This document shows, one piece after another, positions 9,668 through 16,443 of a stretch of DNA of 35,874 nucleotides (within the stretch, counting starts at the first letter, position 1; every line of letters starts with the position of its first letter). A program made the translations under genes and the position numbers. Below the pieces are notes generated by a model. The model made no database searches. It was not told the origin of the DNA and saw only the letters and a list, made by a program, of their open reading frames with translations. Origin of the DNA: a bacterium (lineage in GTDB: Bacteria; UBP14; UBA6098); assembly GCA_023145965.1 (NCBI GenBank), contig JAGLDC010000009.1:1-35874 (forward strand), given 5' to 3'.

Positions 9668-12415
9668 TTAAAAATCCCAGCCGAAGAAAATGTCATAATA
9701 GGGTTTTTCCAAGCCCTCGTGGAAATCGGTGCGCCATGCGACATCGAAGCGAAGACAGGTGATGTTGCCTAGGTTCATTTTAAGGCCGATTCCAGTGCTA
9801 CCGAGGGGTTCAAGCCATTCATTCTCCCATGTCTGGCCGAGATCTAAGAATATTGCGCCGTTGATACCACGAAGATTGATATCTAAGAATGGGAAGCGCA
9901 TGCGGAACTGCTCGATAAGCGGAAAACGAAGTTCGGTGCTTGCAAAAACGAGATTACGGCCATAAAAACTGTAGAATGGGTATCCGCGGAAATCCCAGGT
10001 GCCACCCATCCAGAATCTTTGCGGTTCGGGACCACCGGAGGTTCGTCCTACAAGGCGCGTTGCAAGCGCTGAGCGCTTTGTAAGGCGTAGGTAATACCGA
10101 AGATCGGCGCTGGCAAGGTGGCTGGATATCTCACCGTTATTTAGGCGCAGAGTTGCACCGACTGTAGTGTTCCCTCGAAATCCCTCTAATGGGCCTGTGA
10201 TGCCCCAGTGGGCGTTGTCGCGGATAAGCGAAAGATTCAAGGTCGAGTAAGCGCCTTCTCGATCGGGTTCAACTTCGAAGAAATGGGTTTTCTTTGAGTA
10301 TTCAAGGTATGCTGTGGCATCGGCGCGCATAAAACGGTTGAAGGGATAGGAGATGCTTCCAAGGATTCCAGTGTTTTCTTCAGAAAAACTCCAGTCGTAG
10401 ATGTTGAATCCTTCATTATAATAGTGATAAGCTCCGAAGCCCAATATCGGACGGTCGGATTCGTCGTAGAAAATCGTAACAATATTGAGGTTTTCCAATA
10501 AATCCTTTAAAGAATGCCCTTGATCGTAAACCATGAAATATAACTGCTTGTCCCCAAGCATATCAGAGAACATTCCCTCGATTCCGCCACCGGACTCCAT
10601 CGATGTGCTTGTCGAGATTGTTCCCTGAGCTATGTCGAATGAAAATTTAGTGTCGTAGCCGATTTTATCGCGTGCGGTTGTTTTGGCTAGTTGGCGTGGT
10701 TTCCATTGCTTGGTCCATGGTTTCCATTCAACTTCGATAGTCTCGAATATGCTATCGAATGGAATGGCCATGATCTGGTATGTATTCTTAGAATAAACTG
10801 TCGTGAGAATGCTATCTTTATGGTATTCGGTCGGTTCAAAAAAGCCTGTAAGGATATTCGTTCTTCGGGAGACCGTCAATGAATCTGGAACAAAGTGCCA
10901 GATGTTTTGAATTCCTTTGTTGTGGCTGGAGGACATCAGGATAGATCCATCTGACATTGGCGAGGGCTGATAGTTATTGCCGCCTAGGCCAGAAAGGAAT
11001 TCAATCTTTCCACCACAAGAAGGTATTTTGCAGATGGATTTTTCTCCTATAGTATTTCGGTCGCTGTCGAAAATAATATACTCATTCCAGAAGACAGGGT
11101 TGAAGTCACCATAAATATCTTCAGTTAACCGAATTAGCGAATCTTCTTCTACGAAGAATAAATAAATATCAGTGAATCCTTTCATATTTGTGCCAGAAAA
11201 AGTAACTCTATGTGCGCTAGAGTCCAACTGTGGGCTATTTATACCGGGGATAGAGTCGAATTTTTTACGAAAAAGAATTTCGCTGTTTTTTAACTCGATG
11301 AAGGTTAGGACATCGCCACCCTGAGCCTTGGCGCTCATCGCAAGAACGCCGTTTTGCGAAACCGAAAATGAGTTATCGAATAAGTGCATATCCTCGATTT
11401 TCTCATTGAAACCACCGCGAATAACTAATTCCGATTTTTCGCCGCGTTTACAGTAAATCGCGGGATAGTTCATTCGAGTGGACTGCATAAGAATGCAAGG
11501 GATTGAATCCTCGAGCGATTGCACTGCCAATGGAGAAAGGTTTATTCCCTCGTGCTTGCGGGTAATGGGTTTTCCGATCCTATGAGGGAGGTCACCCTCT
11601 ATTGTCATTGGCCAATACTTGTCATGAATGGCGTCCATCCATTGCTGGCCTGCTTTTTCAAGCGATATTCCAAAATGTGCTTCGAAAAGCTCGTCGAAAT
11701 ACTTGAAATCGTGTATGTCATCTATAACGAGGGGAATGCGTGCTGAACCATACTCCTTTCCAAGCCAGTTGAGAAAGCTCTGTGCTTCTTTATACATCAA
11801 AAAAGAACCGGAGATAGAGTATATGTTTTCGAGAGAGACAAGGCTTTCCTCTAAAGCACCAGAGCGAATAACCATATCCATCTCAGGAGAAGTCCCCTCT
11901 GAAAGGAACTCGGCAAGGCCTTCCTCGAACCACAGCGGAAGGAAGTTTAAAAAGAAAAGCTCGTGGGCATCGTGAACAAAGGTATTTTTATGCAAGATAA
12001 AGGCATGAACCAGCTCGTGCTTGAGTGTATGTCGAAAATCGTTGTAGTCCCCATTGAAAGGTAGAACAACTCTACCTTTATAGTATTCCGTGAATCCACC
12101 GACTCCTTCTGGGAGAATCCAGGAAATCGTGTTTGTCTCTTGAAATAGGTTGGGTGTTGGATAGATAATAACTGGCACTCTAGAGCGAGGCACAAAACGG
12201 AAATTCCCAACATGATCTTCCCAAAATTCCTCTACATCATAAGCTGTAATGCGAGCAAGTTCTTCCTCAGCACCGAAAAAATAAATATCGAAATGCTCGG
12301 TGCGAAGGCGTTGCCAATCGTAATCTCTATATTGAATCTTGTTTTTGCCAAAATAATACTGCCCCAAAGTGGAGGCTGCGAGAATAATAAGAACTATGAA
12401 GATAGGCCGTTTCAT
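9668..12415 (-). CDS. Metallopeptidase, beta-propeller and outer-membrane barrel fusion protein
   Basis: This is a predicted surface-exposed or outer-membrane protein of 915 residues. The ATG at MKRPIFIVLI is chosen because it begins a signal peptide (to about residue 18); the upstream extension begins with TTG. Residues about 35-260 form a peptidase-MA-like gluzincin domain with zinc motif HELVH (133-137) and a downstream WFEEGLAEF that supplies the third ligand (probably Glu165). Residues about 290-570 have TolB/WD-like propeller repeats (for example PQLDSSAHRVTFSGTNMKG). Residues about 640-915 resemble the BamA/surface-antigen barrel: GRTSGGPEPQRFWMGGTWDF, RGYPFYSFYGR, and a C-terminal Phe. 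The substrate is unknown. No Shine-Dalgarno is evident, and 212 bases separate it from hslU, so it may have its own promoter. Confidence 0.8.
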   Translation of the reverse strand: MKRPIFIVLIILAASTLGQYYFGKNKIQYRDYDWQRLRTEHFDIYFFGAEEELARITAYDVEEFWEDHVGNFRFVPRSRVPVIIYPTPNLFQETNTISWILPEGVGGFTEYYKGRVVLPFNGDYNDFRHTLKHELVHAFILHKNTFVHDAHELFFLNFLPLWFEEGLAEFLSEGTSPEMDMVIRSGALEESLVSLENIYSISGSFLMYKEAQSFLNWLGKEYGSARIPLVIDDIHDFKYFDELFEAHFGISLEKAGQQWMDAIHDKYWPMTIEGDLPHRIGKPITRKHEGINLSPLAVQSLEDSIPCILMQSTRMNYPAIYCKRGEKSELVIRGGFNEKIEDMHLFDNSFSVSQNGVLAMSAKAQGGDVLTFIELKNSEILFRKKFDSIPGINSPQLDSSAHRVTFSGTNMKGFTDIYLFFVEEDSLIRLTEDIYGDFNPVFWNEYIIFDSDRNTIGEKSICKIPSCGGKIEFLSGLGGNNYQPSPMSDGSILMSSSHNKGIQNIWHFVPDSLTVSRRTNILTGFFEPTEYHKDSILTTVYSKNTYQIMAIPFDSIFETIEVEWKPWTKQWKPRQLAKTTARDKIGYDTKFSFDIAQGTISTSTSMESGGGIEGMFSDMLGDKQLYFMVYDQGHSLKDLLENLNIVTIFYDESDRPILGFGAYHYYNEGFNIYDWSFSEENTGILGSISYPFNRFMRADATAYLEYSKKTHFFEVEPDREGAYSTLNLSLIRDNAHWGITGPLEGFRGNTTVGATLRLNNGEISSHLASADLRYYLRLTKRSALATRLVGRTSGGPEPQRFWMGGTWDFRGYPFYSFYGRNLVFASTELRFPLIEQFRMRFPFLDINLRGINGAIFLDLGQTWENEWLEPLGSTGIGLKMNLGNITCLRFDVAWRTDFHEGLEKPYYDIFFGWDF

Positions 12416-12627
12416 ATTGAACACAAAATACAAAAATCGTCGGCGATGTCAAGGCGCAGTGATCACACATTACTGAATAGATATTTTATTTAAACCATGG
12501 ATACCAGGCTCGTAGTTTAGCCGAAGAATTCGATGCTTGTCAGTCACATTTAAAACTGAAGACGGTCTAAAATCCGGAAATCACAAAGAGTTATATTCCA
12601 AATCCGAACACGAATCTATATGCTAAC

Positions 12628-13992
12628 CTATAAAATATATTTTGCCAGATCGTCATCCTCGGCAATGTTTTTAAGAGTAGCGCGGACATTGACAAGCTTT
12701 ATTTTCACTTTGGAACCACCGTAATCACGCCCGAAGAACATGATGTCTTCGAGAAGGGTGGTCATTACAGTGTGAAGGCGCCTTGCTCCGATATTTTCTG
12801 TCCGCGAATTAACATCGTCGGCAATGCGGGCTATCTCCTTTATTGCGCCATCTGTGAAGGTAAGTTCGACACCATCTGGAGCCATAAGGGCCTTGTATTG
12901 TTTGATGAGCGAATTCTCCGGTTCTATAAGTATGCGCACGAAATCTTCGCCAGTAAGGGAATCCAGCTCGACGCGTATTGGAAGGCGTCCCTGCATTTCA
13001 GGGATGAGGTCGCTAGGACTGGATTCATGGAACGCGCCGGCAGCAATGAAGAGAATGTGGTCTGTTTTAACCATGCCGTATTTTGTCTGGACATTGCAAC
13101 CTTCGATAACAGGTAAAAGGTCGCGCTGGACTCCCTCACGAGATATGTCTGGGCCACTACCACCGGAGCTTCTAATGGCAATTTTATCTATCTCATCGAT
13201 GAAGACAATGCCCATCTCCTCTACATGTGAGACTGCAGTATTTATTACTTTGTCATGATCTATTAAATTATTTATTTCTTTGTCAAGTAACAGTTTACGC
13301 GCATTATCGACAGTAACTTTTTTGTTTTTAGTTTTCTTGGGCATTATACCATCGAACATCTCGGAGAAATTGACCCCCATTTCCTCCATGCCCATGGGCG
13401 AGAATATCTCGATTGTTGGCATGGATGTGTCCGGGACTTCTATATCAATGAGGCGGTTTTCTAGTAAACCGTTTTCGAGTTGATCCTTAAGTTTGTTACG
13501 AATTCGCTCTGTGCGTTCTTCCTCAGTTTTAACATCGACTTCGCCTCTTTTTTTCGGTCGTTTTGGAGTGATAATATCCAGTATTCGTTCTTCGACTAAC
13601 TCCTTTGCGTGATCGATAACCTCATCCTCGAATTTGACGCGGATTTGCGATATGGCGATATCCACAAGCTCACGAATCATAGACTCGACATCGCGACCGA
13701 CATAGCCTACTTCGGTGAATTTGCTTGCTTCGACCTTTATGAACGGCGCGCCAGCAAGAGCGGCGAGTCTTCGCGATATCTCTGTTTTACCTACACCGGT
13801 GGGGCCAATCATGAGTATATTTGCTGGGATTATCTCATTGCGGAGAGGGCCTTCGACCATCTGTCTGCGCCAACGATTGCGAAGCGCTATGGCAACGCTT
13901 TTTTTAGCGGCATCTTGCCCGATAATAAAGCGGTCTAGTTCAGCGACGATTTCTTTGGGAGTGAATAGTGTTTTCAATTTATTCCGATCCAT
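12628..13992 (-). CDS. hslU: ATP-dependent protease ATPase subunit HslU
   Basis: HslU is the AAA+ unfoldase that feeds proteins into HslV. Its 454 residues start TPKEIVAELDRFIIGQ as in the family. Walker A is GPTGVGKT (63-70) and Walker B is GIVFIDEIDKIA. The intermediate domain lies between, with a Lys/Glu-rich variable part, and a sensor-2 region (ENIGARRLHTVMTTLLEDI) lies near the end. The C-terminus DDLAKYIL is the tail that docks into HslV. It starts six bases after hslV, so the genes are co-transcribed. Confidence 0.97.
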   Translation of the reverse strand: MDRNKLKTLFTPKEIVAELDRFIIGQDAAKKSVAIALRNRWRRQMVEGPLRNEIIPANILMIGPTGVGKTEISRRLAALAGAPFIKVEASKFTEVGYVGRDVESMIRELVDIAISQIRVKFEDEVIDHAKELVEERILDIITPKRPKKRGEVDVKTEEERTERIRNKLKDQLENGLLENRLIDIEVPDTSMPTIEIFSPMGMEEMGVNFSEMFDGIMPKKTKNKKVTVDNARKLLLDKEINNLIDHDKVINTAVSHVEEMGIVFIDEIDKIAIRSSGGSGPDISREGVQRDLLPVIEGCNVQTKYGMVKTDHILFIAAGAFHESSPSDLIPEMQGRLPIRVELDSLTGEDFVRILIEPENSLIKQYKALMAPDGVELTFTDGAIKEIARIADDVNSRTENIGARRLHTVMTTLLEDIMFFGRDYGGSKVKIKLVNVRATLKNIAEDDDLAKYIL

Positions 13993-13998
13993 TATTTT

Positions 13999-14544
13999 TT
14001 ACAGTGTTAATATTGTAATGTTGCTGTTGGTGTAAATGCAAATGCCCGAGGCAATCTCCAGGCTTTTTTTGACTACCTCTTCTGGATTTTTTAGCGAATT
14101 ATGGCCTGTTGTAAGGGCTCGAGCTACAGCGAGGGCATAGCCGCCACCTGAACCGATTGCGCATATGCCATCATCGGGTTCGATAACATCTCCGTTGCCA
14201 GATAGAACATAGTTGGCGGTTTTTGAAACAACCACAAGCATAGCTTCGAGCCTCCTAAGATAGCGATCCATGCGCCAATCTTTGGCCAATTCGACAACGG
14301 AGCGCGGAACGTTGCCTGAATATTCAGAGAGCTTTTCCTCGAAACGATCGAGAAGCGTGAGGCCATCGGCTGCCGCGCCCGCGAAGCCCACGAGCACATC
14401 ATAATTATCGATTTTGCGAACCTTCTTGGCGCCACCTTTGAATATTTCCTCGCCAAGTGTAACCTGACCATCGCCGCCGATTGCTATTTTATCGCCGATA
14501 CAAAGCCCTATTATCGTTGTTCCATGGAACGATTCTTTCTTCAT
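13999..14544 (-). CDS. hslV: ATP-dependent protease proteolytic subunit HslV
   Basis: HslV is the proteasome-like peptidase ring of the HslUV complex. The 181-residue precursor has an eight-residue propeptide (MKKESFHG) ending before the nucleophile Thr9. Counting that Thr as 1, Asp17 (GGDGQ) and Lys33 (AKKVRKI) are both present, as are GFAGAAADG and the GSGGGYA segment. It should therefore be active. It starts one base after the upstream paralog's stop codon and is followed by hslU, so all three are probably translated in a coupled way. Confidence 0.96.
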
Positions 14545-14545
14545 G

Positions 14546-15088
14546 TTATACCCTTTGTTTCTCGAGTTTGACTATTGTCGCGTCGGAATTGACCAATACA
14601 CACACACCCGAGGCAACGTTAAAGGCTTTCTTAACCATTTCGAAGGCGCTTTCTTGAACAACTGGTTGAGCCAGAATGGCGCGAATAGCCGCGAGAGCAT
14701 ATTCCTCACCGGGACCGAGGGCCACAAGACCTGCTTTTTGGACTTCTGCCTTGCCGGGAACGGCAACAAAAGACCTTTCGCCATCAAGAAAAGCTAAGAA
14801 TGCATTTACGTCTTTATTAGTTTTCCACAAATCGGCAATCTTGCCAGCTGTGTCTTCGATGTTTGCACCACTTTCTATGGCCGATTTAGCTATATCGAAG
14901 CCCTCGATGTGATTTGTTGGGCCAGTGAATCCTATAAGAATATTGCCAACCTGTTCGATCCGGCTGATCTGGTTGCCATCGGCCTTGGCCTCGTTGAAAT
15001 CTGTGCCGATAGCCGCATCGCCATCCCAACTTATGCCTATTAGAGTTGTTCCTGTTTTTTTCCCCTCTTTATTTTTTGTCCAAAACAT
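14546..15088 (-). CDS. Divergent HslV-like paralog, probably catalytically altered
   Basis: This 180-residue protein has the HslV fold pattern along its whole length. It has a propeptide-like [13 protein letters not shown], then TTLIGIS with the nucleophile position Thr14, then TDFNE with the Asp17 equivalent (Asp30). It also has [24 protein letters not shown] and [15 protein letters not shown]. By hand alignment, the segment between Asp17 and GFTG is five residues shorter than in hslV. The catalytic Lys33 falls on Gln40, and the active-site Ser of GSGG is Pro in GPGEE. The start has GGAGGG before ATG; a longer TTG start is less likely. It lies directly upstream of hslV. It may form mixed rings or a regulatory ring, but this is inference. 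Confidence 0.8.
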
Positions 15089-15264
15089 ATTTCCCTCCGT
15101 TCTAAAATTCAATTATTAAGCTAATCGATTAACAAGCAGATTTCAAGCCTAATCTACATATAGGAACAACGCCTAATTTTGCATGGGATTTTTCGGCATA
15201 CTGAAAGTAGATTTTATTGTGAGATATATTTTTTCTCATTAGTTCATCAATAGAAAATCCAATT

Positions 15265-16431
15265 CTAAAAGTATTTTTCCATTTGGTCGAAGCCCTTGTT
15301 GATCATCTCTTCAGAAACACAGAATGAAAGACGCAGATGCCCTTCTCCTGTGGGGCCGAAGGCGATTCCGGGAGTGGTGGAGACTCTTGCTTCACGAAGA
15401 AGACGCAAGCAGAAATCAGTGGAATCGGCTGCCCCCTTTGGATCTAGAATGCGCGGAAACATTAAATAGGAACCTTGAGGTTTAAAGTAATCGAAGATCG
15501 AATCGAGTGCGTCCAATCTCTGGCACATAAGATCGCGTGTTTTTAGGTAATGCTCACGGAAATCATCCACGCAATTCTGAGAGCAGCTCAGAGCAGCAAT
15601 TGCGGCATATTGAGAAACCACCGGTGCGCAAATTGTTATAGGTATGTGAGCCTTCCGAATCTGAGCTACCAGTTCGGCCTCGGCGTGCAAATATCCTAGT
15701 CTCCAGCCGGTCATAGCATAGGTTTTAGTAAAGGTAAAGCAGCTAACCACATTTTTTTTCATCTCAGGAATAGATCCAATCGAGAAGTGTTTGGCCTCGT
15801 CGTAAATGAAATACTCGTAGGCCTCGTCAGTGATCACCAGAAGGTTGTGTTTTAGGGCAATTTTAGCCAGTCGTCGGAGGCTTTCCTCGGAATAAACCGC
15901 TCCCGTGGGATTGGAAGGCGAACAGTAGATAATTGCTTTGGTTTTAGGCGTGATAGCCCTTTCGATAGATTCTATATCCAAAGAAAAACCTTTTTCCTCT
16001 GGGCTTGGAACGAAAACCGGTTTGGCGGATGCAAGCTGAACCAGGCGAGCATGAGTGGAGTAAGTGGGGGAGGGGAGAATTACCTCGTCACCTGGGTTTA
16101 GAAGGGCGATACAGGTTGCAGCTAGACCCTCGATGGCACCGGTAGTCACTATAATTTCGGAGATATCTGCGGCTATGCTATTGTCGCGACTCAGCTTCCG
16201 AACAATTTCTTCCCTGAGTTCGGGAAGCCCTTGATCGGTGGAGTATCCACCGACCAATCCTTCATTGATGGCTTTCACAGCGGCGCGTTTAATATGTTCA
16301 GGTGTTCCAGAAGTCGGTTTGGCCCAAGATAGAAAAGCCACATCCTTCAATTCCTTGGAAAGTCGTGTCATTTCGTGAATAGCCGATTTAGTCATTTTTG
16401 CTACTTTTTCGGAAACTCTCCAGTCTTTCAT
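15265..16431 (-). CDS. Class I PLP-dependent aminotransferase
   Basis: This cytoplasmic fold-type I aminotransferase has 388 residues from MKDWRVSEKV; the start is set by GGAG seven bases upstream. Visible family residues are Asn174 (SPSNPTG), Asp202 and Tyr205 (TDEAYEYF), the Schiff-base Lys236 (FTFTKTYAMTGWRLGY), Arg244 and a C-terminal substrate Arg in GHLRLSFC. It resembles aspartate or aromatic aminotransferases of subgroup I-gamma, but the substrate cannot be fixed from sequence. It is a single gene, separated from the hslV paralog by about 175 bases. Confidence 0.88.
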   Translation of the reverse strand: MKDWRVSEKVAKMTKSAIHEMTRLSKELKDVAFLSWAKPTSGTPEHIKRAAVKAINEGLVGGYSTDQGLPELREEIVRKLSRDNSIAADISEIIVTTGAIEGLAATCIALLNPGDEVILPSPTYSTHARLVQLASAKPVFVPSPEEKGFSLDIESIERAITPKTKAIIYCSPSNPTGAVYSEESLRRLAKIALKHNLLVITDEAYEYFIYDEAKHFSIGSIPEMKKNVVSCFTFTKTYAMTGWRLGYLHAEAELVAQIRKAHIPITICAPVVSQYAAIAALSCSQNCVDDFREHYLKTRDLMCQRLDALDSIFDYFKPQGSYLMFPRILDPKGAADSTDFCLRLLREARVSTTPGIAFGPTGEGHLRLSFCVSEEMINKGFDQMEKYF

Positions 16432-16443
16432 ATCGATCTCCAA

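Follow-up and report, generated by a model that had tools for sequence, protein, structure and literature searches.

A bacterium of the UBP14 lineage (UBA6098) carries, directly ahead of an ordinary hslV-hslU pair, a second gene whose product resembles HslV, which textbooks present as the homo-oligomeric relative of the proteasome. Is this product a further peptidase, a decaying copy, or a subunit that has taken on another role with or beside HslUV? The question was addressed for the whole stretch of DNA analysed, referred to as the window (35,874 nucleotides, contig JAGLDC010000009.1 of assembly GCA_023145965.1), and for the related genomes in which the gene could be followed.

The locus and its second HslV-like protein

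The paralog, given the working name HslV-p, is the upstream-most of three genes on the minus strand and is followed by hslV and hslU (Table 1). The open reading frames are separated by one base (HslV-p to hslV) and six bases (hslV to hslU), in agreement with the tight packing described in the original prediction. Across orthologs the protein starts with the preserved segment MFW/MLW-[ST]-KNKEGKK. A scan for promoters and terminators gave nothing above chance worth using.

HslV-p matches the proteasome family PF00227 with 24.3 bits, above the cut-off of 22.4, and the HslV equivalog TIGR03692 with 52.9 bits, below the cut-off of 157.75; the neighbouring hslV reaches 234 bits. The scores bear out the proposal of a second, divergent HslV-like subunit beside a normal HslUV pair. 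The predicted fold has a pLDDT of 93.1, in a model that leans on 49 HslV sequences and that replaced a poor earlier one built from four sequences (pLDDT 60). The closest PDB folds retrieved for the model by Foldseek are all HslV (TM 0.71-0.83), and the predicted similarity to the betaproteobacterial proteasome homologue, BPH, is lower (TM 0.60-0.67).

Closely downstream of hslU, a 921-residue protein (9668-12433, minus strand) combines a Peptidase_MA-like domain with the HExxH motif HELVH, weak similarity to a TolB-like propeller and a C-terminal Omp85-type barrel. Upstream of HslV-p lies a class I/II aminotransferase gene (15265-16443, minus strand), absent from the flanks in the other genomes; its best NCBIfam match, GntC, is far under the cut-off (311.6 vs 415 bits).

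Table 1. Features of the HslV-p, hslV and hslU genes in the window.
Feature	Position	Strand	Basis
HslV-p gene, ATG at 15088, 180 aa + stop	14546..15088	-	open reading frame, GGAGGG, PF00227 match, three orthologs
Ribosome-binding site GGAGGG, precedes ATG of HslV-p	15093..15098	-	sequence
13-residue N-terminal extension of HslV-p, predicted short hairpin; G invariant in 4/4 orthologs	15050..15088	-	
Thr1 codon of HslV-p, nucleophile position retained	15047..15049	-	alignment
Asp17-equivalent codon of HslV-p, retained	14999..15001	-	alignment
HslV-p strand with both candidate Lys33 positions; no Lys in any ortholog	14960..14971	-	
Candidate Lys33 position, MAFFT register (Gln)	14969-14971	-	
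Candidate Lys33 position, tight-hairpin register (Arg)	14960-14962	-	
HslV-p helices H1/H2 (~49-93, HslV numbering), near-invariant in HslV, variable in HslV-p	14822..14905	-	
Gly-Pro-Gly of HslV-p, replacing Gly-Ser124-Gly	14708..14716	-	alignment
HslV-p helices H3/H4, better conserved than those of HslV	14603..14707	-	
Canonical hslV (181 aa); Thr1 preceded by prosequence MKKESFHG	13999..14544	-	TIGR03692, 234 bits
Canonical hslU, 454 aa, C-terminus ...AKYIL	12628..13992	-	TIGR00390, 603 bits

Active site and location of constraint

The active site was compared in a MAFFT alignment of the four known HslV-p orthologs with 49 HslVs. Thr1, Thr2, Asp17, Gly45, Gly48, Gly123 and Gly125 are kept in all four paralogs, which confirms that the Gly-Thr-Thr and Asp17 are retained. 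Ser124 is replaced by Pro in every ortholog and a net five residues are absent between Asp17 and GFTG, both as originally described; the normal hslV keeps all of these residues. The HslV-invariant positions 18, 19, 35, 83 and 89 are lost in HslV-p as well. It should be noted separately that the canonical HslV of the second genus (genome G003, locus L036) carries Ser in place of Gly ahead of Thr1 (HS-TT).

The position of the catalytic lysine depends on the register chosen. Every one of the 49 HslVs has Lys33, and its MAFFT column holds Q, S, E and E in the four paralogs, with Gln in that of the source genome. In the model of HslV-p, a strand at 40-47 is followed by a two-residue turn and a strand at 50-57; were this hairpin two residues shorter than that of HslV, position 33 would hold R, M, V and I in the four paralogs. 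The claim that Lys33 has become Gln holds in the MAFFT register and does not describe a conserved feature; no lysine aligns there in HslV-p in either plausible register. Because Lys33 and Ser124 are both gone, normal Thr1 catalysis by HslV-p should not be possible. Peptidase activity is accordingly inferred to be lost, and the notion of a non-proteolytic, divergent HslV subunit next to HslUV is probably correct.

Invariant columns were counted for HslV-p and for hslV in the same four genomes. At positions 49-93 (H1/H2), 40 of the 45 columns are invariant in hslV and three of 45 in HslV-p; at positions 123-165 the paralog is the more constrained, with 30 of 43 invariant columns vs 22 of 43 in hslV. 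The N-terminal extension shows an identity of 0.82 among the paralogs, compared to 0.44 for the hslV prosequences. Conservation in HslV-p is found in the 13-residue extension, the active-site loop and H3/H4. Column by column, conservation shows no correlation between the paralog and the hslV of the family (rho 0.003), in contrast to a value of 0.33 between two HslV groups. In the HslV of the source family, H3 is not conserved to a corresponding extra degree (0.45 identity).

In the usual proteasome architecture, H1/H2 face the ATPase or the alpha ring, and the rings touch each other through H3/H4. The HslV-conserved residues 35, 83 and 89 and helices H1/H2, which would lie on the HslU-facing side, are unconserved in the paralog. 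The near-complete loss of constraint in H1/H2, combined with that at these three positions, argues that HslV-p would not dock HslU in the manner of HslV. In HslV, the entrance to the pore carries basic residues at 86, 89 and 90 that are important for proteolysis (PMC5777263); position 89 is among those unconserved in HslV-p. The unusually conserved H3/H4 of HslV-p could reflect a contact with HslV or with itself.

Distribution, selection and descent

Orthologs of HslV-p were found in four of the five source-family genomes examined, namely all three of the genus and one of a second genus, with identities of about 60-63% within the genus and 49% to the second genus. The fifth genome, 80% complete, lacks the paralog and also lacks hslV and hslU. 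In a search of a 366-genome sample the four family members scored above 310 bits and all others at or below 82 bits. The paralog was not found in 87 genomes (a few also in the 366-genome sample) from three further phyla; in all, none of the roughly 450 genomes sampled carries it apart from the four family members. A contig scan, with peptide patterns that favour close relatives, matched one relative; a viral origin was considered and rejected, as no viral contig matched. The assertion that most bacteria have one hslV agrees with the sample, as two copies occur in just five of the 217 genomes with a match, four of them from the source family. In the remaining one (G352, loci L107 and L110) both HslVs are ordinary, with 58% and 52% identity to the source HslV; as this genome is 82% complete with 4% contamination, it is possibly a mixed bin.

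The paralog is maintained under strong purifying selection. Between the same-genus orthologs dN is about 0.28-0.31 and dS is saturated or near saturation; since dN is far below the saturated dS, HslV-p is not decaying. Neither of the two outcomes that the original prediction named as refuting it, a lysine at position 33 or an unconserved copy in relatives, was thus observed. The idea of a duplicate on its way to a pseudogene without function can draw on its faster evolution (within-genus identity about 0.61 vs 0.84 for hslV). Intact frames in four species, the invariant blocks and the low dN oppose it, and this reading is rejected as having next to no chance of being right.

In the tree, the paralogs form one clade (100/100) that groups with the HslV of the source family (93/100); the latter value is under the strict threshold of the program and the branch is long. 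The loop between H3 and H4 has one residue more than that of the sister families, a feature common to the family HslV and the paralog only. Two sister families have the order gmk-topA-xerC-hslV(-hslU). In the second genus (G003, locus L075, 867-6040), topA-xerC is followed by a gene for a 239-residue predicted outer-membrane protein and then by the paralog, which thus occupies the place of hslV in the sister families. Taken together, the tree, the length of the loop and the synteny indicate that hslV was duplicated in tandem in the source family, with moderate support for placing the event at the topA-xerC-hslV-hslU locus of the family ancestor. The simplest history starts with this duplication at the former place of hslV, after which one copy diverged rapidly.

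In the source genus topA-xerC is intact and the trio is not there. The paralog, hslV and hslU stand together in all three same-genus genomes, each time with different flanks (an aminotransferase gene, recG, or an ABC-transporter gene with hflX), so the three genes have been relocated together within the genus. The frames of paralog and hslV overlap in one of these genomes and are separated by 1 and 7 bases in the other two; on account of this spacing, hslV and hslU are probably translated together with HslV-p in this genus. Conversely, in the second genus the paralog is unlinked to hslV, which lies between comM-like and argF-like genes and is itself unlinked to hslU.

Possible roles and comparison with known systems

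From the four orthologs known, the best explanation is that HslV-p is a family-specific, proteolytically disabled HslV descendant, kept by selection, that assembles with active HslV and tunes HslUV. This explanation is tentative, somewhat short of an even chance. It builds on the conservation of the gene, its lost residues, its descent and its linkage. HslV-p would work with, or beside, HslUV, most likely within one particle; an arrangement in mixed or asymmetric rings is plausible but unproven. As the paralog should be unable to run normal Thr1 catalysis, its N-terminal extension would probably be retained and would sit within the chamber, at the paralog's own inactive site or above it. HslV-p would then assemble with active HslV in one of two ways, as a separate ring on top of an HslV ring or side by side with HslV in the same ring, and this co-assembly is the least certain step. 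As the HslU-facing side of HslV-p is no longer constrained, the resulting core would offer fewer HslU docking sites, together with fewer active sites, and could thereby set directionality, product size or activity of HslUV. A first heteromeric HslV core, in which active HslV and its inactive sister together build a dodecamer and HslU docks on the active part only, is possible though less likely than not. Against the disabled-subunit explanation, the family HslV shows no matching conservation in H3, as a shared ring-ring contact might require, the retained Gly-Thr-Thr is unexpected in an inactive enzyme, and in the second genus the paralog is unlinked to hslV, although hslV and hslU are themselves unlinked there.

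The main rival is an independent homo-oligomeric particle resembling BPH: the duplicate would have left HslU and formed its own ring or double ring, either non-proteolytic (binding, chaperone, storage) or ATP-independent. The unconstrained HslU-side helices and positions 35, 83 and 89 fit such a particle, and BPH itself offers a precedent as an HslV descendant that lost its HslU contacts (PMC5777263). The rival stays strong because the pronounced H3/H4 conservation has no counterpart in HslV and because linkage to hslV is lost in the second genus. Still, the paralog lacks the Lys33 and active-site Ser of BPH, and one genus keeps the gene packed closely with hslV and hslU, in part with overlapping frames, despite repeated rearrangement of the flanks; on balance an independent particle appears rather unlikely. 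Some N-terminal nucleophile hydrolases of other families function without lysine, and HslV-p might be an active, rewired threonine hydrolase whose exposed Thr1 uses its own amino group, K22 or a residue of the neighbour, perhaps on non-protein substrates. K22 is the sole lysine conserved across the paralogs within residues 1-50 and could lie near Thr1, which leaves such a rewired site some room. The invariance of Gly-Thr-Thr, Asp17, Gly45 and Gly48 in all four orthologs and a Pro at 124 that is fixed rather than drifting are in line with this reading. It is nevertheless improbable, as the Lys33 that is universal among the 49 HslVs is kept even in BPH and Anbu (PMC5777263, PMC6376114), and in HslV-p Ser124 is lost too and the residue at position 33 drifts. 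Less probable again is an assembly factor or inhibitor that binds the HslV ring transiently, with the extension as pseudo-substrate, and is missing from the mature protease. The high conservation of the extension relative to HslV prosequences and the place of the gene ahead of hslV in a shared translational unit would suit this role, but the full HslV-like fold that is predicted suggests a subunit rather than an adaptor.

Compared to HslV (ClpQ, TIGR03692), HslV-p directly descends from the HslV of the source family and shares the predicted fold, the Gly-Thr-Thr start, Asp17 and the glycine positions. It differs in the absence of Lys33 and Ser124, in being five residues shorter before GFTG, in the loss of HslU-side positions and in its conserved 13-residue extension. 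A single HslV in each species is what has been stated (PMC4106860), and no second, paralogous or inactive HslV was found in the literature searched, which included few subscription papers; the novelty of a paralogous inactive HslV is likely but not certain. BPH has a complete Thr/Ser1-Asp17-Lys33-Ser active site and no propeptide (PMC5777263). A tetradecameric double ring is a further mark of BPH. Like the paralog, whose residues on the putative HslU side vary, it is an HslV descendant, and its HslU contacts are not conserved; the two differ in that BPH kept all active-site residues and HslV-p lost some of them and conserved an extension; membership of HslV-p in BPH was rejected on the incomplete site. 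The nearest functional analogy is ClpR of cyanobacteria and plastids, which lacks the catalytic triad and is the inactive counterpart of the active peptidase paralog in an AAA+ protease (PMC7966870). ClpR has an unrelated serine-protease fold, and its incorporation into the core is shown, whereas that of HslV-p is a proposal.

HslV-p combines the loss of catalytic residues with conservation of the gene, as expected of an inactive partner. The eukaryotic 20S proteasome has inactive beta subunits, proteolytically inactive paralogs that stand beside active ones. HslV-p belongs to the same superfamily and is likewise an inactive-looking neighbour of an active paralog; ring sharing is shown for the beta subunits and proposed for HslV-p, which has an independent origin. 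It has the look of a first "pseudo-subunit" in HslV and may be compared to the human proteasome's inactive subunits. A conserved, inactive second HslV would represent an independent start of the path to such subunits, in a system of just two peptidase genes that could be dissected in the laboratory, and a heteromeric HslV core, if true, would be an independent bacterial repeat of the proteasome's gain of inactive subunits.
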